The notes beneath the pieces are model-generated. The model searched no databases, had not been told where the DNA came from, and saw only the letters and a program-made list of their open reading frames with translations. A stretch of 40,058 bases of DNA from Fidelibacterota bacterium (GTDB lineage: Bacteria > Fidelibacterota > UBA8477 > JABMPR01): NCBI GenBank assembly GCA_021734255.1, contig JAIPJM010000026.1, forward strand, positions 1-40,058. The letters run 5' to 3'. Positions within the stretch are counted from its first letter, which is position 1, and every line of letters starts with the position of its first letter. Shown here piece by piece: positions 11,841-24,650 of this stretch. The position numbers and the translations under genes were made by a program.

Positions 11841-13049
11841 TTAGCTATCGAGCAAGCTCTCCAGACGCCAGTTCATCTCTGCGATGAAGTCCTTGTCTGG
11901 ATCAAATCCCACGATCTTGTAACGGATTTTTCCTTGTGGTCCTATTATAAACAGACTGGGGATACCTTCCACACCAAATTTTGTGGCATTGCCCTCGTCA
12001 TAAGTGATGGGAAAAGTGAATCCCATCTCGTCTACATAAGGTTGTACCTTCTGCTTTTCTGCGTCAGTTGATGCCGCAATAAATGATACCCTTGGATCGT
12101 TCTTATGCATTTCATAGAACTTCTGGAATTCCGGTAGCTCACGTCGACAGGGTCCACACCAGGTTGCCCAGAAATCCACAAAGACAACTTTACCCATTTG
12201 ATTCATATTGGTATAGGTTTTTCCTGAGAAGTCAGAGAATGAGAACTGAGGAGCCTCAAGGTATATGGTCTCTGCCAGGACCTGTTCACGTCGTTTCTCG
12301 TTCAGACTTACCTGCAGGTCATTGATGAACTGGGTAGCATCTTGACCTGGATTCAGTGCTGTATATAGTTCCTTGACCTTATTCGTAAGCATGGGCTGGT
12401 TCGGAGAAAGTCCCAGGGCGGTTACAAAATCCTCCAGGGCTGCAGACAGATCTCCCTGTTCCTCCAGGATCAATGCGCGCTGGATCAATGCCTCGGGCTG
12501 TTCATAATGGTCGATGGAGGCGCTGTAGGCCTCCAAGGCACCCTCCTGATCGCCGGCACTTGAATAGACAACAGCCTGGGTGGCATATACGGCTGCACCG
12601 ATCTGATCCCGATACTCGAGACTGTCCGCATTTGCATTGAAGGACTTAATGGTAAACTCAATAACTTCCTGAGCCATATTGGGGAGCATATTCTGGGTGC
12701 TCATGATCCAGGCCAGCTGATTTCCGATAGCGATCTGGTCAGACATCTCCAGCGCGCCATTCTCTGGATAATTCTTCAACAGACCGTAGAATTTGCTGAA
12801 TTGCTCCGAATCGTTTTCCATGAGAGCCCGCTCAGAGCCCTGGGCCAGAATGACGGCAGCTTCATACTTTTCAGGGTAGTTTTTTGCCAGCTCGTAAGCA
12901 AAATCCATCCATTCTTCGAACTCTAACTCATTGAGGAGTGTATCTGTAAGGATGATGAAGCGTTCCTCAGATATTTCTTCCTTTTGTGAGCAGACATTCA
13001 GGCTCACTATTAATCCTGCTACCAGGACGAGACTCATTAATTTTTTCAT
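11841..13049 (-). CDS. TPR protein with C-terminal TlpA-like thioredoxin domain
   Basis: A 402-residue exported protein. The N-terminus MKKLMSLVLVAGLIVSLNVC looks like a lipoprotein signal, but the residue before Cys is Val, so lipid attachment is uncertain; ordinary secretion is the alternative. Residues 30-255 are helical with TPR-like units (GALEAYSASIDHYEQPEALI, ALEDFVTALGLSPNQPMLT). Residues about 265-402 form an AhpC/TSA/TlpA thioredoxin fold with the redox motif WATWCGPC (C298, C301) and the cis-proline region GVEGIPSLFII. It probably reduces or exchanges disulfides in the periplasm. It is 23 nt from the hydrolase gene upstream and 25 nt from the Omp85-like gene downstream, so it is operonic. 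Confidence 0.88.
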   Translation of the reverse strand: MKKLMSLVLVAGLIVSLNVCSQKEEISEERFIILTDTLLNELEFEEWMDFAYELAKNYPEKYEAAVILAQGSERALMENDSEQFSKFYGLLKNYPENGALEMSDQIAIGNQLAWIMSTQNMLPNMAQEVIEFTIKSFNANADSLEYRDQIGAAVYATQAVVYSSAGDQEGALEAYSASIDHYEQPEALIQRALILEEQGDLSAALEDFVTALGLSPNQPMLTNKVKELYTALNPGQDATQFINDLQVSLNEKRREQVLAETIYLEAPQFSFSDFSGKTYTNMNQMGKVVFVDFWATWCGPCRRELPEFQKFYEMHKNDPRVSFIAASTDAEKQKVQPYVDEMGFTFPITYDEGNATKFGVEGIPSLFIIGPQGKIRYKIVGFDPDKDFIAEMNWRLESLLDS

Positions 13050-14065: not shown

Positions 14066-15550
14066 TTAATCCAAATATTCATCCAGAGCGTCCTTAATGT
14101 TGAATATGGCGTCATGGTCAGGCTTGTAGTGAATATGCTCATAATCGTTTTGATCATTAATTTCGTAAAGCTTTCCATATGCTTCGCCATTTTCAATGAT
14201 ATCCTTGAGGGCGGCAATAAGTACCTTGGCATCATCCATGGTGGAGTACATTCCAAAACTGGCCCGGACCATCCCTGCTTTACGCATGAACTCATCACTC
14301 ATATTACCGAAATCGATCTCACCGAAATCCTTCTTCAGTTCATCAGACATCATTTCCTTTACATAGGGATGGGCACAGAAGCATTGATTGCGGACGGCTA
14401 TGTTAAAATAGTCATTCAATACTGCCGCCACCAGTCCATGGTCCAAGCCGCGAATGTTAAATGATATGGACGCCGCTCGCGGACAATTTTCGAAATCTGT
14501 GCCACCATAGACGATGACCTGCTCCAACCTGGCAAATTCACTGAGAGCAAAGTGCATGATCTCATCCTCAATTTCCATGAGGAGATCCATGCCGATCCTA
14601 TCCAGAACTTCAATGGTGGTGGCTAAAGCAATAGCACCGGGAATATTGGGTGTACCTGCCTCTTCCCTGTCCGGAAATTCTTCCTTTACCAGGTATTTAT
14701 CCTCCATGACACGTTCCACCATACCACCACCTACTTCTTCTGGTTCGATGCCAAGTAGATGATCTTTCCGGGCAATAACAACCCCAGGTGAACCAGGGGT
14801 GTATGTCTTGTGCCCTGAGAACACGAGGGCATCAATGGTGGCATCAGGATCATCAGCATGAAAGATCTGGGTGGGCAGATGAGCCACACTTTGCGCTCCA
14901 TCCACCATAATAAGTGCCCCATATTTGTGGGCCATTCTGGCGATATCATGGATCGGATTAATAATGCCCGTCACATTGCTAACTGCCGTAATTGAAACAT
15001 AATTGATCTTCCCCTTCCCGGCTTTCAGGGCATCCTCAAGTTTGGCAAGATCAATGCACATGAGGTTGTCATCTATCCCTTGAACGGGGATGTGAATGAC
15101 TGACTGCATATGTTTGCGATGTGGAAGATCATTGGAATGATGTTCCATGATGGAGATCACAGCCGTATCCTTCTCCGGCCTGAGGTCTCGGAAGACCCGG
15201 GCCATTCTATTGACACCGGCTGTGGTTCCTGCCCCGGCAAAAAAGCAGGTATATATCTCTTCTGGCGCACCGACAAATGCCAGGATCCGACTGTGGGCCC
15301 AATCGTAGGCGGCAGTTGATATGAAGGCACTGTGATGAAGTTTGCTATGGGTATTGGCATAATGACTCATGAAGGAGGTCACGATCTCGGCTGAAGGGCG
15401 AAACATGAGCGAGCTTGCCGTTGAATCCATGTAGATCCTCCGGGTTAACTCTCCGCGAGCATTCTCGTAGGTTGTATCCAAACCCAGGAAGTCATTTCTG
15501 ACTTTTTCGAATAGTGTTTTTCCCCGCAGTGTATCTCCAGATAAACCCAT
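14066..15550 (-). CDS. Class V aminotransferase (cysteine desulfurase / selenocysteine lyase-like)
   Basis: A 494-residue PLP enzyme, longer than SufS/CsdA (about 400) because of a C-terminal extension after residue 430. The PLP lysine is K248 in FSGHKTYTPG, the cofactor-binding Asp is in MVDGAQS, and the catalytic cysteine loop is VRNQCFCAHPY with C390 and C392 (C392 aligns with the SufS C-A-x-P cysteine). The N-terminus contains the family segment RRIYMDSTASSL. AAGGAG precedes the ATG. It likely removes sulfur (or selenium) from cysteine (or selenocysteine), though other class V reactions are possible. It leads a four-gene run with the hydrolase, TPR-thioredoxin and Omp85-like genes. Confidence 0.87.
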   Translation of the reverse strand: MGLSGDTLRGKTLFEKVRNDFLGLDTTYENARGELTRRIYMDSTASSLMFRPSAEIVTSFMSHYANTHSKLHHSAFISTAAYDWAHSRILAFVGAPEEIYTCFFAGAGTTAGVNRMARVFRDLRPEKDTAVISIMEHHSNDLPHRKHMQSVIHIPVQGIDDNLMCIDLAKLEDALKAGKGKINYVSITAVSNVTGIINPIHDIARMAHKYGALIMVDGAQSVAHLPTQIFHADDPDATIDALVFSGHKTYTPGSPGVVIARKDHLLGIEPEEVGGGMVERVMEDKYLVKEEFPDREEAGTPNIPGAIALATTIEVLDRIGMDLLMEIEDEIMHFALSEFARLEQVIVYGGTDFENCPRAASISFNIRGLDHGLVAAVLNDYFNIAVRNQCFCAHPYVKEMMSDELKKDFGEIDFGNMSDEFMRKAGMVRASFGMYSTMDDAKVLIAALKDIIENGEAYGKLYEINDQNDYEHIHYKPDHDAIFNIKDALDEYLD

Positions 15551-15699: not shown

Positions 15700-18348
15700 T
15701 TACTTCATCAGAATCATTTTCACGACCTTCGACTCATTGGCAACATCAAGTTTGGCAAAGTAAATACCAGTTTCCACGAGCTTACCCTGTTTATCCATAC
15801 CATTCCAAACAACTGAATAAGATCCTTCAGAAAGAGTCGTATTTACTAACTGACTCACCTCATGTCCCAGGGCGTCAAAAATTCGTAATGTGACTGGTTT
15901 GTCTTCTGGGATACCAAATTCTATCGTCGTGTTTGCATTAAAAGGATTCGGAAAATTCTGAGCCATAATAAGCGTTGACGGCACCTCCACTTCACTGTCA
16001 TTGGACACTAAAAGCGGATTGTAGAAGCCTGTTCGCTGCAGATCGCCCCTGGCTGTACTCCATTTGTAGCCAACTGATGATCTGATCTTCGAGTTCACAA
16101 TCGTAATATCTTCATCGGTTCCGATCACGATATCAAGCCAGCGATCTCCATCGATATCGGCCACTGTTGGTGTACCCTGAGCCTGACTACTGAGGGGAAC
16201 AGGAAAATCAGCAACAACGCTACCATCAATATGGAAAGCAAAGAGTTCACCGGAATTGGTGCCTACTATGATTTCTGGCACCCTATCTCCAGTCAGATCA
16301 GCGATTACGGGTGAACTGTAAAAGCCTTCACCTACCGTCTGGGGCCAGCCGGAGAGATCATTCCCCAGGTGATCCACCACGGTTATCATGCCGTCCAGCG
16401 TATTGAACACTGTCTCCATGGTACCATTTTCATCAAAATCCGCGACAGCCGCAGACGTTCTGATCCTGGCACTGGAAAGTTGGTGGGTCCAGAGGGTGTC
16501 ACCCGTGTTGGCGACAGCCAGGAAGAGGCCTTTATCCTGGCCAACCAGGATATCCATGCTCCCATCACCATCTATGTCTGTAATAACCGGGGGTGAGTTC
16601 ACCAGCGATCCGGGTAAACCATTGGAGACATCAACAGGAAAACCGGTAAGTTCTGCACCAGTAAGGTCAACTGCGTGTAGCAAACCCTTCCAGGTACCAA
16701 ATACGATGTCTTTATTACCATCATTATTAAGATCAGCGATGGCAGCTCCCTTGGATATGATCTCAGCGGTGAGAATCAGCGGAAATCCGGCGTAGGCTGT
16801 GCCATCATGATGCAGTACGGATAACTCGGAAGCGAAGTTTCCAATAACGATCTCCATGTCTCCGTCCTTATCAAGATCAGCGATGGCAGGTGTGCCCATG
16901 ATCAGGCTGGAAGTCTCTGCAACAGGACCGCCGGTACCGTCATGATGCAGGACATAGACTTTCTTATCCTGTGAGGCGAAGACGATCTCCAGATCACCAT
17001 TATTGTCAATATCGGCAACTGCTGGTGAGCCCAGAATTGTATGGCCAGCCCGGAAGGGGAAGCCTGAAAATTCTGATCCATCACTCTGGAACACATGTAG
17101 TGCGCTGTCCAGACCACAAATAATGATCTCCATTATACCGTCCCCATCCAGGTCAGCAACAGCATTTCCTGTGGTCAGAGGTTCAGAATTCTTTACTGGA
17201 AAATTCAGCTTGAACCGATCCAGCTTAACTTTAAGGGGTAATTCCTGCTCGTAGGGGATGTAGGATACTGTGCCACCATCCCAGGTGGTAACTCTCAAGC
17301 TCAGATCTAATTCAGTTATTGCTGGTGTATCATCTGCAACCTTGATCCGGAATGCAGACTGCAGATTTGTTTGCGCTTCACACGCAGTCAGATCTCCAAA
17401 AGTCCCAACGCTGTCTAAAACAATGACATGGGGATCATTACTGGTCAATATCCCCTGCACATTAGAAGCACTCTCCCAGTTGCACTCGTTGCTCAATGTA
17501 ACCAGATACTGGGCCGTCTCTCCTCGATTAAGCTTCATATCCCCGTCATCATCAGTGACTGACACCTGCGTGTCTCTAACGGATAGTAGTGGCAGCGGTG
17601 GGGTGGGTAGCGCTGTTAGATCCTCAGTGGCTGCATTTAATATGCTCCCATCTGATCCCTGAACAAAAGCGACCAGGCGGCAATTCTCTGGGGCAAAGGC
17701 AGGATTGATACCGATTTTAAATTGTTTGACGGTCTCAACACCACTTTCCAATGCAATAGATGTACCGCTGGCATTGGGAATCATATCCCGCATGACAGCC
17801 TGGTGCAGATCGTCAGAGGTAGTGGAACCTGGGTGATAGAGGTCGTCTTCAACCAGCACGAAATGCAGGGTGTAATCCCCATTCGTGCCAGCTTCGGGCA
17901 GCACAGTGATCATCGCAGTTGCCACCAGCGTTTCACTGTTAAAGCTACCGGCAATCGATAGCTCGATCGGCGCCGATGTGGTAGCCTGGGAAAGGAGGTG
18001 ATTCTTCCAATCCTGAGTTGATGATGTCTCTGTATTCATGCTATTATTGCCGTTCGAGACAAACCAGGGGACCCAAACTACCTGGTAATGGACTCGACGC
18101 GTATTCGCCTCGGTCACATTAAAATTATGATAGGGGTCCACGCCTGGCCAGGACATATGGTAGGCAATGGTCGTATATTCGTTCAAATGGTCTTGCTGAA
18201 ACACGCTCAGCTCGTCCCCAACGGGGCCGCAGCCAGGTCAGCCAGTGTTGGTAAAATACTCAGCCAAAACCAAACGCTCGGCACCAAAAGAGGCCAGGGC
18301 AGATAGGCTTAGGATGAGTAAAACCAGGGTCTTTAAATCGAATCTCAT
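15700..18348 (-). CDS. Probable selenoprotein: secreted thioredoxin-fold / FG-GAP beta-propeller protein with in-frame TGA
   Basis: Translation from the ATG at 18348 (GGGGAG 9 nt upstream) gives a signal peptide, MRFDLKTLVLLILSLSALAS, then LAEYFTNTG, an in-frame TGA at codon 37 (18240-18238), then PGCGPVGDELSVFQQDH and the open frame to 15700. Total length is 882 residues if the TGA is read. The context is that of an Omp28/thioredoxin-like CxxC motif (FTxTGCPxCGP), so the TGA replaces the first Cys, exactly where selenocysteine would sit (UxxC). Then follow a beta-sandwich region (to about 380), eight FG-GAP/VCBS-type repeats with DxDxDG calcium motifs (ADLDGDGIME, ADIDNNGDLE, ADLDKDGDME and others) and a C-terminal sorting domain (NFPNPFNANTTIEFG ... 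KMILMK). Without readthrough only a signal-less product from GTG at 18204 is possible. Nonsense mutation or sequencing error remain alternatives. Confidence 0.75.
18209..18240 (-). promoter_or_regulatory. Candidate bacterial SECIS hairpin after the in-frame TGA
   Basis: Starting four bases after the TGA the mRNA can pair GGCU (18234-18231) with AGCU (18212-18209), CG with CG past a bulged G, then, after a G-A mismatch, CCCC (18226-18223) with GGGG (18219-18216), closing a GUU loop. A small apical loop beginning with G, about 15 nt after the UGA and within the coding region, is the general layout of bacterial SECIS elements read by SelB. The spacing is at the short end, and the GC-rich stem could be chance. 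Confidence 0.45.
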
Positions 18349-18466: not shown

Positions 18467-21400
18467 CTAGGTCCTGCCTTTCTTCTCTAAAAGCTTCCGT
18501 TCTCCACGGCTTTCCAGAAGCGAATAAAGAACAGGCACTATGACCAGCGTCAGAAAGGACGATATTGCCAGACCAAAGATCAAGCTAACGGCCAGAGGTC
18601 GCCAGTATTCAGCTCCGCCTGCCAGGTTCAAGCTCAGGGGGATCATTCCTGCCAGAGTCGTCACCGTGGTAAGGATAATGGGTCTGAGTCGATTCCGCCC
18701 CGCTTTGATCAAGGCTTCTCTTATCAGCATTCCTTCCCGGCGCAGATCATTCACATAGGCAATGAGAACAATGGCATCATTCACAACGACTCCCATAAGA
18801 GCCACCACACCAAAAAAGGCCATGATCCCAAAGGGTACCCGCGTGACCATCAAACCAAAGATCACACCAATAAAGGACAAAGGAATAGCCAGAGCGATGA
18901 TGAACGGCTGTATCACGGACTGAAATTGAGCACTAAGAATGATCATGATGATGATAAATCCGATGATCATGGCCCGTCCCAGACTGGCAAATGATTTGGA
19001 CGCCTCATCTTCGATGCCACCATACTCAACCGTAACCCCATTTGGTATGGTCAATCCTTCAAGGAATGGATCCATACGGCGATGAATGTCTGTCACATCA
19101 GAGCCCTTGGCCATATCACAACTGACGGAGATGTTTCGTTTGAAATCTTTGTGCTTGATCAGGGTTTCAGCGCTACCCAGCTCCAACGTGGCGACATTCT
19201 GAAAAGGCACCATCTGCCCCCTCTGGTTCATGACGTTCAGATTTTGAATAGCCTGAACGGCATCATCCTCATCCACATCCAGCCGCACAACGACGGGAAT
19301 ATCCTCCAGACCATCTGTGTATGTTGTAGCTTCCATACCGATCATGGCAGCCGCCAGTGTATTACTAACGTCCTGACTGCTAAGTCCGTAGCTGGCCGCA
19401 CGATCATGATCGACCTTGGCCTGAAATTCTGTTCTACGGACGCCAAGACTGGAAACAACGTTCACCGCCCCCTCAACTGTTTGCAGTTTATTTTTGATCT
19501 GGTCAGAGACAAAACTGATGGCGGCCAGGTCATCACCACTTACATCGATGATGACATTGGATGAAACCGGTGGTCCTTCCTGTATGGTTTCAATGGAAAT
19601 ATCAATACCGGGCATTTTGGCAAATTCAGCACCCATGATCTCAATGAGGTCATCAACCGAACGATCCCGCTGCGTCGCATCCACAAGATCAACATTGATC
19701 TGAGCGATCTCCGCTCCCTTCCCTCCACCCTGGGCTGTTCTCAAATTCTGCACACCACTTTCTCCCACCGTAGAAACGTAGCGATCGACCTCTTCAATGC
19801 TTTGCAGGTATCGCTCAATATCCCGAACCACTTGATCTGTATATTCCAGCTGACTCCCGGCCGGAGTGTTGATGTCAAGGATGATCCTTGGGCGGGGGAC
19901 ATTTGGAAAGATCTGCAGTTTTACCAGCTTCAGGTCACTTACGGCTGAGATTCCAACAATGGCTATGGAGAGAAAAAAGGTGAAAATTGCACTAAAGACC
20001 ACTGTCCAACGGTGGTTCAGTGACCAGCCCACGATCTTCGTATAGATTCGTTTCCCAACCCATTCCCCACTAAGGACACCGGCTCGTTTCGTCACAGACA
20101 TTATTTTAGAGGCCAATACAGGAATTAGGAAGTGATCGGCTAAAAAGGCGCCGACTAGCGTGAATATCACAACTTTGGGGATCACAGAGAGAAACTGTCC
20201 CATGGTTCCGGACATGTAAATGATCGGGGCGAATGCTACCATCGTGGTCAATACGGCAGTCATGATCGGCACACCTACTTCATCCACCGCCATGATGGCA
20301 GCGTCTCTTCTACTCAGCCCCTCCTCCATGTGTCGATATGTGGATTCGGCAATTATGATGGCGCCGTCAACGACGATACCGAGAACGATAATAAGCCCGA
20401 ACATGGATATTCCTGTCCGGTCAACCTCGAACAGATACATGAGCGGAAAGGAGGACATAAGCGCGAAGGGGAGTGCCAGGGAAACGATGAGTGCATTTTT
20501 AAAACCGATACCAGCAAAGAGGACGAGGATCACAAAGATGATACCCCACATGGCATTCTTGTTTAGCTGGCTGTTTTGCGTTTCTATATCCGTTGCCTGT
20601 CTCGCAGTATAGGCAAATTCCATTCCCTCGGGAAATTTCAGTGCTGACGCATTTACGACCGCCTCTATCTCCTCGGTGGCTTCTACGATGTGAGCGCCGG
20701 TCCGTTTAGAGATCAAAAGGGTTACACTATTTTGACTTTGGTACCGGGAGTAACTGCTGGGGATCTCAAACCCATCAATGACCGTACCTACATCCTTGAT
20801 CCTTTTGATGTTGCCGGATTGATCCACACCAAGGATCGTATTTTCTATATCTTCAATTTTTGCGAACTTGCCTACCGTGCGGATAAAAATATCCTGCCCT
20901 TTGAGTTTAATGGTTCCGCCAGGGAAATTCAGGTTGTTCCTCTGGAGGGCCATGAGGACTTGGGGCATACTCAAATTATTTGCGACCAGCAGGTCTGGGT
21001 CAAGTTCCACAGAGATCTCCCGCTCCTCGCCACCGAACATCTCAACCTGGTTAACGCCAGGTACACGCGTGAGCTTATCCTTGATTATTTCAGCCTGGGA
21101 ACGGAGCTCGTGAGGCGAAAATTCACCATAAATATTTAAAATGCTAATGGGTGTATCGGTAATATCCACATCTCGAACAGTCACATTCTCGACTTCATCC
21201 CTGAGTTCGGGGAGGGCTTCATTCACCTTTTCTTTCAATTCATCGATACTGCTCTCCAGATCCGCGTCTGCCGAAAACTTTACAGTAATGAATCCTGCAT
21301 TTTGCATGGCATAGCCATTGATCTCCTCAACATCCTGGAGCTGAGATAACTTATCCTCAATGGGTTTGATGATCTCGGTTTCGATCTCTGATGGAGCGGC

Positions 21401-21559
21401 ACCAATATATGTGGCAGAGACAAATGCATAAGGGATCTCGATCCGGGGAACCAACTCCAGAGGTAGGATCATGTAGGCCGCTACACTGGCCAGAAAGATC
21501 CCAAGGGAAGCGAAAATGACGCCCATGGGGTGATCAATTGCCTGTTTTGATATTTTCAT
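18467..21559 (-). CDS. RND-family efflux pump, inner membrane permease
   Basis: A 1030-residue transporter of the AcrB/MexB (HAE-1-like) type, driving export with the proton gradient. It shows the duplicated layout of 12 membrane segments with two large periplasmic loops. TM1 follows the short N-terminus (MKISKQAIDHPMGVIFASLG). The TM4 proton-relay region reads LGIVVDGAIIIAES, so only one Asp is present where AcrB has D407-D408. The second half carries the matching VVALMGVVVNDAIVLI. GPPVSSN and SAQFQSVIQPFI are family signatures. It is the last gene of the tetR-tolC-acrA-acrB run, 12 nt after the membrane fusion gene. Substrates cannot be predicted. Confidence 0.95.
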   Translation of the reverse strand: MKISKQAIDHPMGVIFASLGIFLASVAAYMILPLELVPRIEIPYAFVSATYIGAAPSEIETEIIKPIEDKLSQLQDVEEINGYAMQNAGFITVKFSADADLESSIDELKEKVNEALPELRDEVENVTVRDVDITDTPISILNIYGEFSPHELRSQAEIIKDKLTRVPGVNQVEMFGGEEREISVELDPDLLVANNLSMPQVLMALQRNNLNFPGGTIKLKGQDIFIRTVGKFAKIEDIENTILGVDQSGNIKRIKDVGTVIDGFEIPSSYSRYQSQNSVTLLISKRTGAHIVEATEEIEAVVNASALKFPEGMEFAYTARQATDIETQNSQLNKNAMWGIIFVILVLFAGIGFKNALIVSLALPFALMSSFPLMYLFEVDRTGISMFGLIIVLGIVVDGAIIIAESTYRHMEEGLSRRDAAIMAVDEVGVPIMTAVLTTMVAFAPIIYMSGTMGQFLSVIPKVVIFTLVGAFLADHFLIPVLASKIMSVTKRAGVLSGEWVGKRIYTKIVGWSLNHRWTVVFSAIFTFFLSIAIVGISAVSDLKLVKLQIFPNVPRPRIILDINTPAGSQLEYTDQVVRDIERYLQSIEEVDRYVSTVGESGVQNLRTAQGGGKGAEIAQINVDLVDATQRDRSVDDLIEIMGAEFAKMPGIDISIETIQEGPPVSSNVIIDVSGDDLAAISFVSDQIKNKLQTVEGAVNVVSSLGVRRTEFQAKVDHDRAASYGLSSQDVSNTLAAAMIGMEATTYTDGLEDIPVVVRLDVDEDDAVQAIQNLNVMNQRGQMVPFQNVATLELGSAETLIKHKDFKRNISVSCDMAKGSDVTDIHRRMDPFLEGLTIPNGVTVEYGGIEDEASKSFASLGRAMIIGFIIIMIILSAQFQSVIQPFIIALAIPLSFIGVIFGLMVTRVPFGIMAFFGVVALMGVVVNDAIVLIAYVNDLRREGMLIREALIKAGRNRLRPIILTTVTTLAGMIPLSLNLAGGAEYWRPLAVSLIFGLAISSFLTLVIVPVLYSLLESRGERKLLEKKGRT

Positions 21560-21571
21560 AGCTGACCTTCC

Positions 21572-22615
21572 CTACTCAATAATATTAAGGAGTGAGCCAT
21601 CTCTGACATCGTTGTAGCCCCTCATAATGAGGCTTTCACCCTCCTCGATCTCCGCTTCCACCATGACGCGTGCACCAGCCAGCGCTTTGATCTTTACTGG
21701 TTTCCGGACTGCCCGTCCATCCTCAGCTATGAACACAAATTGATCGGTTCCATCATCCTGAATCAGATTCAAGGGTAGTACGATCGCGTTATCAAAGTTC
21801 TCCAATATGATCCGCACATCAGCGACCAATCCTAACTTCAGATCAGCGGTGTCTCCTGTCAAACGAACTTCGACGTCGTAATTGTTGGAAAAATCCTTGG
21901 GCGCTAACCCTACTCGCAGCACTTCACCGGGGAAAATACGGTTGGGGAAGGTCTTAAAACTGACCGTTGCAGCCTGGCCAACCCTGATCTGCCCGATCTG
22001 CGCTTCAGGCACTGGTATCGTTATCTTGAGACGTCTCATATCAGCCAATACAAAGGGCGGCTGCATAGCGCCGGCAGGTGATGCAAGGTCACCTACATTC
22101 AGATTTTTTGATACGATCCAGCCGCTAAAGGGTGCTCTCAACACTGTATTCTCCAGCGTATTTTTCGCCTGGGTATATCCTGCTCGGGCGTTGTCCAATC
22201 CGATGCGGGCCATTTCATATTGATCTGACGAGATCACATTGGATTCGTATAGATCCTTTGAGCTTGCCAAGTCCCGTTTGGATTTTTCATACATGGATCG
22301 AGCCTGGGTATACATGGTTTGATATACATTATTCTCAAGGCTGGCCAGTTTCTGATTCTTGTTGACAAAATCCCCGACATTGACCCAGATAGAGTCGACT
22401 TGACCGCTGGACTGGAATAATAGATTCACCTGGTTTTCTGAGAGAACTCTGCCAATACTGTGATATTCTATCTGAAATTGTTGATAGTTGAAGGTATCAA
22501 CTGCAACTGCAACTTTTGATTCAACCTTCTGCTCAACAGTCTCTCCTCCACCGCATGATATGAGGATCATCACACCGGTCAGGGTTAAAATTTTATTCAT
22601 CCATCCTGTTTTCAT
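21572..22615 (-). CDS. RND efflux periplasmic adaptor (membrane fusion) lipoprotein
   Basis: A 347-residue HlyD/AcrA-family adaptor bridging the RND pump and the outer membrane channel. The N-terminal signal ends in a lipobox (MILISC followed by GGG), so it is probably an inner-membrane-anchored lipoprotein. The lipoyl halves are at about 70-100 (VDSIWVNVGDFVNKNQKLAS) and 170-200 (APFSGWIVSKNLNVGDLASP), separated by a short helical hairpin. The beta-barrel (KITIPVPEAQIGQIRVGQ) and membrane-proximal domain (IVLPLNLIQDDG) follow. Its ATG overlaps the upstream channel gene stop as TAATG. Confidence 0.94.
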   Translation of the reverse strand: MKTGWMNKILTLTGVMILISCGGGETVEQKVESKVAVAVDTFNYQQFQIEYHSIGRVLSENQVNLLFQSSGQVDSIWVNVGDFVNKNQKLASLENNVYQTMYTQARSMYEKSKRDLASSKDLYESNVISSDQYEMARIGLDNARAGYTQAKNTLENTVLRAPFSGWIVSKNLNVGDLASPAGAMQPPFVLADMRRLKITIPVPEAQIGQIRVGQAATVSFKTFPNRIFPGEVLRVGLAPKDFSNNYDVEVRLTGDTADLKLGLVADVRIILENFDNAIVLPLNLIQDDGTDQFVFIAEDGRAVRKPVKIKALAGARVMVEAEIEEGESLIMRGYNDVRDGSLLNIIE

Positions 22616-24036
22616 TACTCATCTCCCAGTGCGCGTGCCAGAGATGCACGGGCATTATTGTATTCAAAATATGCTTGGTATAAACCGAGTTCCGCCTGAT
22701 CACTGGCACTCTGGGCATCCATTACCTGCAATTGGCTGGCCATCCCCTGCTTATAAAGCTGTTGAGCCATGTCGACCCCTTTGCGAGCCTGCTGAACCCC
22801 CTTCAATCCTGCTTCGATCTTTCGGGCTGATTCCTGAATGCTCAAATAAATACTCTGTAACTCGAGCAGTAGATTTTCTTTGACATCATAGAGCTGATAT
22901 TCAGATTTTCTATGTTCGGCTTTCGCTTGCTGGACCCTGGCTGTTGAACCGAATCCGTTAAAGAGGGGCAGATTAATTCCGACTGCTAGAGATGATGATT
23001 CTCTGAATTCAGCATCAGTAAACTCCCCATCATTGTAGGGCAGCATTTGCTGGTAGGAGCCAGTCAGCGCAATGGAGGGCATGAATTCGGCCTTCACCAT
23101 GAGGATATTCTCCTTCATCAGCCTCACACTTGCTTCCACCTGATTCAGTAGGGGTTGCTTTGCCAACATCTGTGCTTCCAGTTCACCAAGATCAAGATCA
23201 GTCTCAATGTTGACCTGGAGCGCTCCTATTGCAGAGATATCCAATTCAAGATCAATACCACAATTGCGCTTCAATCCAGCGTATGCAAGTTCCTTCATCT
23301 TCCGGGCATTACTGACCATGGTTGTCTGGTTGGCTACCTGTACTTCAGCCCTGATCACATCAAATTCAGCTGTTTTCCCCTGAGCGTAAAGGGCTTTCAC
23401 ATTTTCCAGGTTCTGAATCATCACGGTGAGTGAATGTTCAAAGACCTGAACCATTTTGTCAGCCAGGAGTACACCATAAAATGCCTGTTTGGTCTGTTCG
23501 ATGACGGCTAGTCTGGTTACCTCAGCTGAATAGTCAGTCAGATCCTCAAGTGCATCGGCCCCACGGATAGCCGCGATCACTCGGCCTTCAAAAAGAGGCT
23601 GGGTAAGGTTTAAGCCGTATACCATGTTATTATCATTACCAAAGGCAAGATCAAAAGGCACCAGCATGATGCCCGTTTTCTGGAGGAATTCACCTGGGAT
23701 CGGATTTCCATTTGGGTCCGTATTCTGGCTTCCCAGAGCAATTGGATCTCCGTTGGCATCCAGAACTCCGAATGGTATTGGGAAGGAGATGGGTTGGGAG
23801 GCAATGGAAAAACTATGGGATGCTTGTCCGAAAGCAGAAACCACTGGCAAGGCTGATGAGAAAGCTTCTTTTTTCTGCGCCTTGGCCTTGATCAGATTCT
23901 CTTCCACATTCTGGATCTGGATGTTGCTCTCAAGTGCCATATCAATGGCTTTGTTCAAATCCAGGGCCAGTGTTTCTGCCTGAACGATGCTGACCAGTGC
24001 GATTCCTGCAAGCGTGATTGTTAAATTTTTTCTCAT
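22615..24036 (-). CDS. TolC-family outer membrane channel
   Basis: A 473-residue outer membrane efflux protein with a signal peptide (MRKNLTITLAGIALVSIVQA). It begins with the TolC repeat signature LALDLNKAIDMALESNIQIQ and has the long coiled-coil helices in two structural halves (residues about 190-260 and 400-460). The middle region LPLFNGFGSTARVQQAKAE is the typical second-repeat strand. It overlaps tetR upstream (ATGA) and the adaptor gene downstream (TAATG), so the four genes are one operon. Confidence 0.94.
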   Translation of the reverse strand: MRKNLTITLAGIALVSIVQAETLALDLNKAIDMALESNIQIQNVEENLIKAKAQKKEAFSSALPVVSAFGQASHSFSIASQPISFPIPFGVLDANGDPIALGSQNTDPNGNPIPGEFLQKTGIMLVPFDLAFGNDNNMVYGLNLTQPLFEGRVIAAIRGADALEDLTDYSAEVTRLAVIEQTKQAFYGVLLADKMVQVFEHSLTVMIQNLENVKALYAQGKTAEFDVIRAEVQVANQTTMVSNARKMKELAYAGLKRNCGIDLELDISAIGALQVNIETDLDLGELEAQMLAKQPLLNQVEASVRLMKENILMVKAEFMPSIALTGSYQQMLPYNDGEFTDAEFRESSSLAVGINLPLFNGFGSTARVQQAKAEHRKSEYQLYDVKENLLLELQSIYLSIQESARKIEAGLKGVQQARKGVDMAQQLYKQGMASQLQVMDAQSASDQAELGLYQAYFEYNNARASLARALGDE

Positions 24037-24650
24037 GATTTGGCTCCGTTCAGAAAAATATCGATGATCTCATCGGCATTCATTTGATCCTCAGGTAATT
24101 CCCCGGCCCTTAGAGACCTGACCTGGGCATGGATCATCCCGCTGAGGTAGCTGGCATAATGTTTGGGATTCCCAGGACGTAGTTGTCCGGCGTCTATGGC
24201 TGCCTGCATTTCCTTGACCACCAGTTTTTTCAGTTCCTGGAAGCGTTCAAAGACAGACCGACTGGCAGGGTGATGCATGAGTAACTGTTGATTGGTCATG
24301 ATCACATTCATGAAATTTGTGTTTTTTTGATAGTATGCGAATTGGGAATTTGCGATCAAGCCGATCCGCTCCATGGGATCATCCACCGAGGAGAGCTGTT
24401 CATAAAGAAAATCCAGTACATTATTGACAGCATACTCAAAGGTACACAGGAGGAGGTGATCCTTATTCTCAAAGTAGTTATACAGGGTACCTTTGCCGAA
24501 TTCAGCCCGAGCTGCCACATCTTCTAATTTGGTATCGGCGAATCCCTTCTGTCCAAAGATGTGTACAGCCGCTTCCAGAATAGCCTGTTTATTCCTGAGC
24601 TTATCTCTTTCTTTGCGACTTAATGTGTCAGTCTGTGAATTTATATTCAT
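24033..24650 (-). CDS. TetR-family transcriptional regulator of the RND operon
   Basis: A 205-residue repressor. The N-terminal helix-turn-helix spans about 18-64: ILEAAVHIFGQKGFADTKLE, then DVAARAEFGKGTLYNYFENK, the standard TetR motif. The C-terminal ligand-binding domain is helical and has no obvious relative. As the first gene of the efflux operon it very likely controls itself and the pump, released by a pump substrate. GAGGAG lies 5 nt upstream of the ATG at 24650. Confidence 0.93.
   Translation of the reverse strand: MNINSQTDTLSRKERDKLRNKQAILEAAVHIFGQKGFADTKLEDVAARAEFGKGTLYNYFENKDHLLLCTFEYAVNNVLDFLYEQLSSVDDPMERIGLIANSQFAYYQKNTNFMNVIMTNQQLLMHHPASRSVFERFQELKKLVVKEMQAAIDAGQLRPGNPKHYASYLSGMIHAQVRSLRAGELPEDQMNADEIIDIFLNGAKS

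Follow-up and report, generated by a model that had tools for sequence, protein, structure and literature searches.

Comparison of a 40,058-nucleotide stretch of DNA from a Fidelibacterota bacterium (GenBank assembly GCA_021734255.1, contig JAIPJM010000026.1, positions 1 to 40,058 of the forward strand; hereafter the window) with related genomes indicates that a gene on its minus strand very probably encodes an exported protein with selenocysteine (Sec) at codon 37, in a thioredoxin-like domain. Taken together, a conserved UGA, cysteine (Cys) in equivalent proteins, covariation in an RNA hairpin, the Sec machinery of the genome and the predicted fold provide very strong comparative support for a genuine selenoprotein. 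A first-pass annotation, made from the letters of the window, had proposed that Sec opens a U-x-x-C motif in an exported beta-propeller protein, and this proposal is supported by the machinery, the Cys homologues and the covarying hairpin. The gene and its N-terminal features are as follows.

15700 to 18348, minus strand: selenoprotein gene of 882 codons with a TAA stop, from translation and alignment with long homologues.
18240 to 18238, minus strand: in-frame TGA read as Sec, codon 37 of 882; same codon in TGA-bearing homologues, Cys in stop-free ones.
18280 to 18348, minus strand: signal peptide MRFDLKTLVLLILSLSALASFGA, read by eye; the structure model shows a helix at residues 5-19.

Translation of the 882 residues revealed a single internal stop, the TGA at residue 37, in the context LVLAEYFTNTG-U-PGCGPVG, and the frame is intact on both sides as the first-pass annotation had stated. 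The start ATG at 18348, a GGGGAG ribosome-binding site just 5′ of it and a signal-peptide-like N terminus were also seen upstream of the TGA, as had been described; since no cysteine precedes residue 37, the signal peptide is without a lipobox. Alignment with 17 other long homologues, at 34-50% identity, spans the whole length of the protein. A mechanical listing of open reading frames (ORFs) under translation table 11 gives an 834-residue ORF starting from GTG at 18204, in which the signal peptide and the U-x-x-C motif are lost, as had been anticipated for standard annotation.

The N-terminal 249 residues were used as the query against 60 genomes, including that of the window. Matches were found in 25 of the 60 genomes (54 matches), and 30 of the 54 carry TGA. 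All 30, from 19 genomes, share the position of the TGA codon, which begins a U-x-x-C motif close to the N terminus, with the Cys retained; this agrees with the earlier placement of the TGA at the first Cys of a CxxC motif. Seven of the 24 stop-free matches were inspected, and all seven have Cys at the Sec-aligned position. A collection of named genomes yielded 19 loci (15 Candidatus Neomarinimicrobiota, two 'bacterium', one Zixibacteria and one Euryarchaeota); TGA was found in 17, and the Zixibacteria and Euryarchaeota loci have Cys; several of these loci are the same contigs as in the 60-genome set and hence are not independent rows. Across the phylum, a match was found in 98 of the 245 genomes. 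The 42 phylum rows checked at the site comprise 31 with TGA (29 distinct genes) and 11 with Cys, and nothing else; they were mostly picked for TGA, from a much larger number of TGA matches, so the Sec share is not a sample. Cys homologues aligned at residue 37, for which the first-pass annotation had suggested a search, are thus represented by all 11 stop-free rows examined.

Of the 19 genomes of the genus that were searched, 15 have UGA genes of the clade that bears the propeller, as do two other genomes from the order. At five loci (L059, L060, L061, L053 and L052) a second copy of the propeller selenoprotein gene lies close to the first; the window has one copy. The gene of genome G006 (locus L067) has a TAG besides the Sec TGA, possibly through decay or an assembly error. 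It was omitted from the alignment of TGA genes (A2; 28 of 30, also without a contig-end fragment of G018) and from that of complete long genes (A4; 18 of 19).

If the TGA arose by nonsense mutation or sequencing error, or lies in a pseudogene, it would be a true stop, with the 834-residue remainder decayed or separately started; the GTG-started ORF of the mechanical listing and the TAG in G006 would fit this. However, the same codon recurs in 30 of 30 TGA matches from many assemblies, and therefore neither sequencing error nor nonsense mutation explains the TGA; the protein is also conserved on both sides, and RNA covariation lies 3′ of the TGA. This explanation was rejected on the shared codon and is very improbable. 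Reassignment of TGA to Trp, Gly or Cys in the source genome would leave the frame open through the TGA, as observed, but is even less probable and was rejected, since TGA terminates five of the 27 long ORFs of the window (150 or more residues, mechanically picked, with little overlap) with at most 13 open codons beyond, in line with the earlier remark that TGA is otherwise a stop here, and since Cys stands at the aligned residue in 11 of 11 stop-free rows; the genome also has tRNA-Sec(UCA), SelA, SelB and SelD.

These four components, which the first-pass annotation had named as the ones to look for, all score above their curated cut-offs in the source genome (2.87 Mb in 59 contigs, 91.3% complete): selA with 432.8 bits (cut-off 22.8), selB with 353.1 (242.25), selD with 374.5 (125) and tRNA-Sec, with anticodon UCA, with 72.5 (47). 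The SelD gene (L018 1393-2529) has an in-frame TGA of its own, in KAAGUAGK, and is likely itself a selenoprotein gene. Across the phylum, SelA was found in 43 of 46 genomes with a verified UGA versus 141 of 199 others (Fisher p = 0.001, in a test that ignores relatedness). In genome G027, which is 98% complete, the Cys form is present and no match to SelA was found. On the other side, SelA was not found in three of the 46 UGA genomes, G014, G115 and G134, which are 86, 67 and 93% complete.

Two hairpins lie downstream of the TGA, and the one farther from it is the likely selenocysteine insertion sequence (SECIS).

18195 to 18211, minus strand: likely SECIS hairpin, stem 18211-18206 with 18200-18195, loop CGUGU 18205-18201, identified by covariation.
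18215 to 18227, minus strand: upstream hairpin, rich in GC (GCCCC-GTT-GGGGA) and with four pairs as read in the window, role unsettled.

The published model of bacterial SECIS elements (bSECIS), as given in the accessible part of PMC13188914, has a loop of 3-9 nt, a stem of 4-16 bp, a G in the first two loop positions, a spacing of 16-37 nt and a free energy of at most -7.5 kcal/mol. The hairpin at 18211-18195, with a 5-nt loop, G second and then U, a 6-bp stem and 32 nt from UGA to loop, lies within all of the geometric limits. With the UGA as columns 1-3, columns 30-35 and 41-46 are paired in 95.2% of 168 cells, 25 of which are doubly changed; pairing, double changes and covariation score were each reached by 0 of 500 shuffles, and slid versions were far lower. 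In the window clade (26 distinct rows) every SECIS cell is paired, with 24 doubly changed, and the Leu codon TTG is accompanied by Gln CAA in 13 rows, and CTG by CAG in 10, without any mixing, a covariation that is synonymous on both sides. The 18-nt hairpin also folds better than shuffles (z -2.39).

Several measures weigh against this hairpin. Only four pairs changed on both sides, a number as high in 20 of 500 shuffles, and the further pair types number nine, as high in 151 of 500; moreover, covariation cells count related sequences and not events. A 54-nt stretch of the window folds no better than shuffles (z 0.42), and the 18-nt hairpin, at -6.8 kcal/mol, misses the energy limit of the model. 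A 36-nt stretch reaches -11.1 kcal/mol but takes in part of the upstream hairpin.

The upstream hairpin is paired in 86.4% of 140 cells, with two doubly changed cells (one to four in slid versions) and a covariation score of 0.172 versus 0.067-0.137 when slid, as high in 25 of 500 shuffles. It was not preferred as the SECIS, having little covariation, a 15-nt spacing (the model minimum is 16) and some loops without G. Its GGG codon is kept in 25 of the 26 distinct rows; of the 1995 Gly codons in TGA-bearing homologues, 245 are GGG. Given this conservation, the hairpin could still have a SECIS role.

In three other Sec clades the loop of the best hairpin starts at +21 or +23, versus +36 in the window clade, and pairing at the hairpin position of the window clade is only 33-44%. 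The codon is the same, yet the covarying hairpin lies 13-15 nt further downstream than in the other clades; the gain or re-anchoring of Sec in the window clade may have been independent of the NF045500 clade (see below) and its kin, possibly with a two-hairpin element, although we advance this only tentatively.

Three domains follow the signal peptide, as placed by profile searches and predicted structures.

17602 to 18279, minus strand: thioredoxin-like plus beta-sandwich domain of the Omp28/HBP35 type, about residues 24-249.
16081 to 17166, minus strand: FG-GAP beta-propeller, about residues 395-756, eight repeats by eye from the strand list of the model.
15703 to 15954, minus strand: C-terminal type IX secretion system (T9SS) type A sorting domain, residues 799-882, TIGR04183.

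The N-terminal part matches Pfam Omp28 (PF11551) with 66.8 bits against a gathering score of 34.9, and its predicted structure has the HBP35-like thioredoxin plus beta-sandwich fold. The thioredoxin-like domain of the first-pass annotation therefore stands as a fold, corrected to the HBP35/Omp28 kind, and its FG-GAP repeats and sorting domain were confirmed by profile searches and the model. TIGR04183 scored 36.5 bits (cut-off 23), and the translocon protein SprA, the sole T9SS component searched, is present in the source genome with 735.4 bits versus 200. Less favourably, Pfam Por_Secre_tail reached 24.2 bits, under its cut-off of 27, and the thioredoxin half, good in the domain run, is poor in the full-length model (block means of the predicted local distance difference test, pLDDT, mostly 31-43); that model, with a mean pLDDT of 71.0, was used for the propeller only.

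Related selenoproteins are already known. NCBIfam NF045500, 'Omp28-related selenoprotein', is GOS_C in Table 1 of the accessible part of PMC13188914, and the 2008 description of GOS_C covers 74 Sec sequences and gives it a thioredoxin-like fold and UxxC (PMC2398784, accessible part). The window protein shares with it the Omp28/thioredoxin-like domain, the UxxC and Sec at model position 51: residue 23 aligns to position 37, which places residue 37 at 51 if ungapped, and loci L135 and L137, whose supplied sequences begin at U, align to the model starting with position 51. However, the window protein scores 32.4 bits versus a cut-off of 200, falls in a different clade, adds the FG-GAP propeller and T9SS tail, and has its SECIS loop at +36 versus +23 in the L135/L137 clade. 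Its clade kin L054, L062 and L066 score 45-64 bits, L125, L126 and L141 26-44, and five f11/f25 relatives 171-184, whereas L135 (507.4) and L137 (355.5), of the same phylum, exceed the cut-off; eight of the ten scored rows are given from U onward, so the scores of those eight are somewhat low. NF045500 proper is a clade mostly of f26/f28, distinct from the f11/f25 clade. The tree, which is midpoint-rooted and has long branches, includes G006, its TAG entered as X; on it the Sec/Cys label needs five changes, of a direction not set by the tree. Further Omp28-like Sec rows (L141 = G079, L123-L130 and L131-L140) have the motifs FTATWUPTC, FTSSTUGPC and FTGxxUPYC.

The closest solved structure to the window domain is HBP35 of Porphyromonas gingivalis (PDB 5y1a), also a thioredoxin plus beta-sandwich, but with 16% identity and Cys where the window has Sec; its solved chain of 314 residues, versus 882 in the window protein, leaves no room for a propeller. 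Agrobacterium Atu2684 (2axo) likewise has Cys, not Sec, and at 270 residues is without a propeller. Omp28 outer-membrane lipoproteins (PF11551; NF033782) are similar in that the window protein passes Pfam Omp28, but it scores 49.6 bits versus a cut-off of 150 for NF033782, lacks a lipobox and has Sec. FG-GAP is named in no row of Table 1 in the accessible part of PMC13188914, and in literature searched without most subscription papers no published selenoprotein with FG-GAP was found, nor, under those names, an Omp28 or Neomarinimicrobiota selenoprotein. Among viral contigs, 23 stretches fit a pattern and none is a relative. The claim of a selenoprotein architecture not described before is consistent with these searches; that of a new selenoprotein holds in part. 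Judged from sequence, what is new is the window clade and its propeller architecture, the NF045500/GOS_C family having been known before.

Given Sec, fold and motif make a redox function outside the cytoplasm probable. The hairpin at 18211-18195 would direct SelB and Sec-tRNA(UCA) to decode UGA-37. The product would cross the inner membrane by its signal peptide and the outer membrane most likely by the type IX system, which would place it at the surface. There, Sec37-Pro-Gly-Cys40 in the HBP35-like domain may serve thiol-disulfide (or peroxide) chemistry as a selenenylsulfide/dithiol centre, and a partner, glycan or calcium is the probable ligand of the FG-GAP propeller. Alternatively, the Sec-Cys pair could bind heme or a metal, or be structural, an explanation that accepts Sec and competes only with the redox step. 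HBP35 binds hemin, and a mutant in which it is deleted grows more slowly when hemin is depleted (PMC2907840, accessible part). Against this, UxxC is a redox layout, the thioredoxin activity of HBP35 depends on its two active-site cysteines, and most selenoproteins that await characterisation are considered likely to have redox roles (PMC13188914, accessible part). We consider a non-catalytic domain unlikely, and favour the redox function.

Directly upstream on the same strand (18467-24650, minus) lies an RND efflux set, with genes for a TetR-type regulator, an outer-membrane factor, HlyD and an RND permease. Permease relatives lie near the homologue in many fetched loci (79-82% identity among the matches listed), and co-regulation with the selenoprotein gene is therefore possible. 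Just downstream (14066-15550, minus) is a SufS-like class V aminotransferase gene (245 bits, under the cut-off of 475.1), relatives of which are also near the homologue in many fetched loci (71-77% identity among the matches listed); some fetched loci in this comparison are one contig twice. A link of this enzyme to Cys or Sec supply is speculation. A hydrolase gene is also downstream, as is a gene (11841-13049, minus) for a TPR protein that carries a thiol oxidoreductase domain of the ResA/TlpA kind and may act as a redox partner. The contig end (23-795, minus) carries four tRNA genes, for Thr, Tyr, Gly and Thr, besides a short match of elongation-factor type.

An exported, propeller-bearing Sec clade thus appears to join the Omp28-related selenoproteins known before. 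It suggests that bacteria presumed to be marine from isolate names carry out selenium-dependent redox chemistry outside the cytoplasm. The differing SECIS position between clades with a common Sec codon makes SECIS turnover testable. If the independent gain or re-anchoring of Sec is true, the Omp28-type surface thioredoxins of one phylum would record the way in which a SECIS shifts, or originates afresh, while the Sec codon stays fixed.
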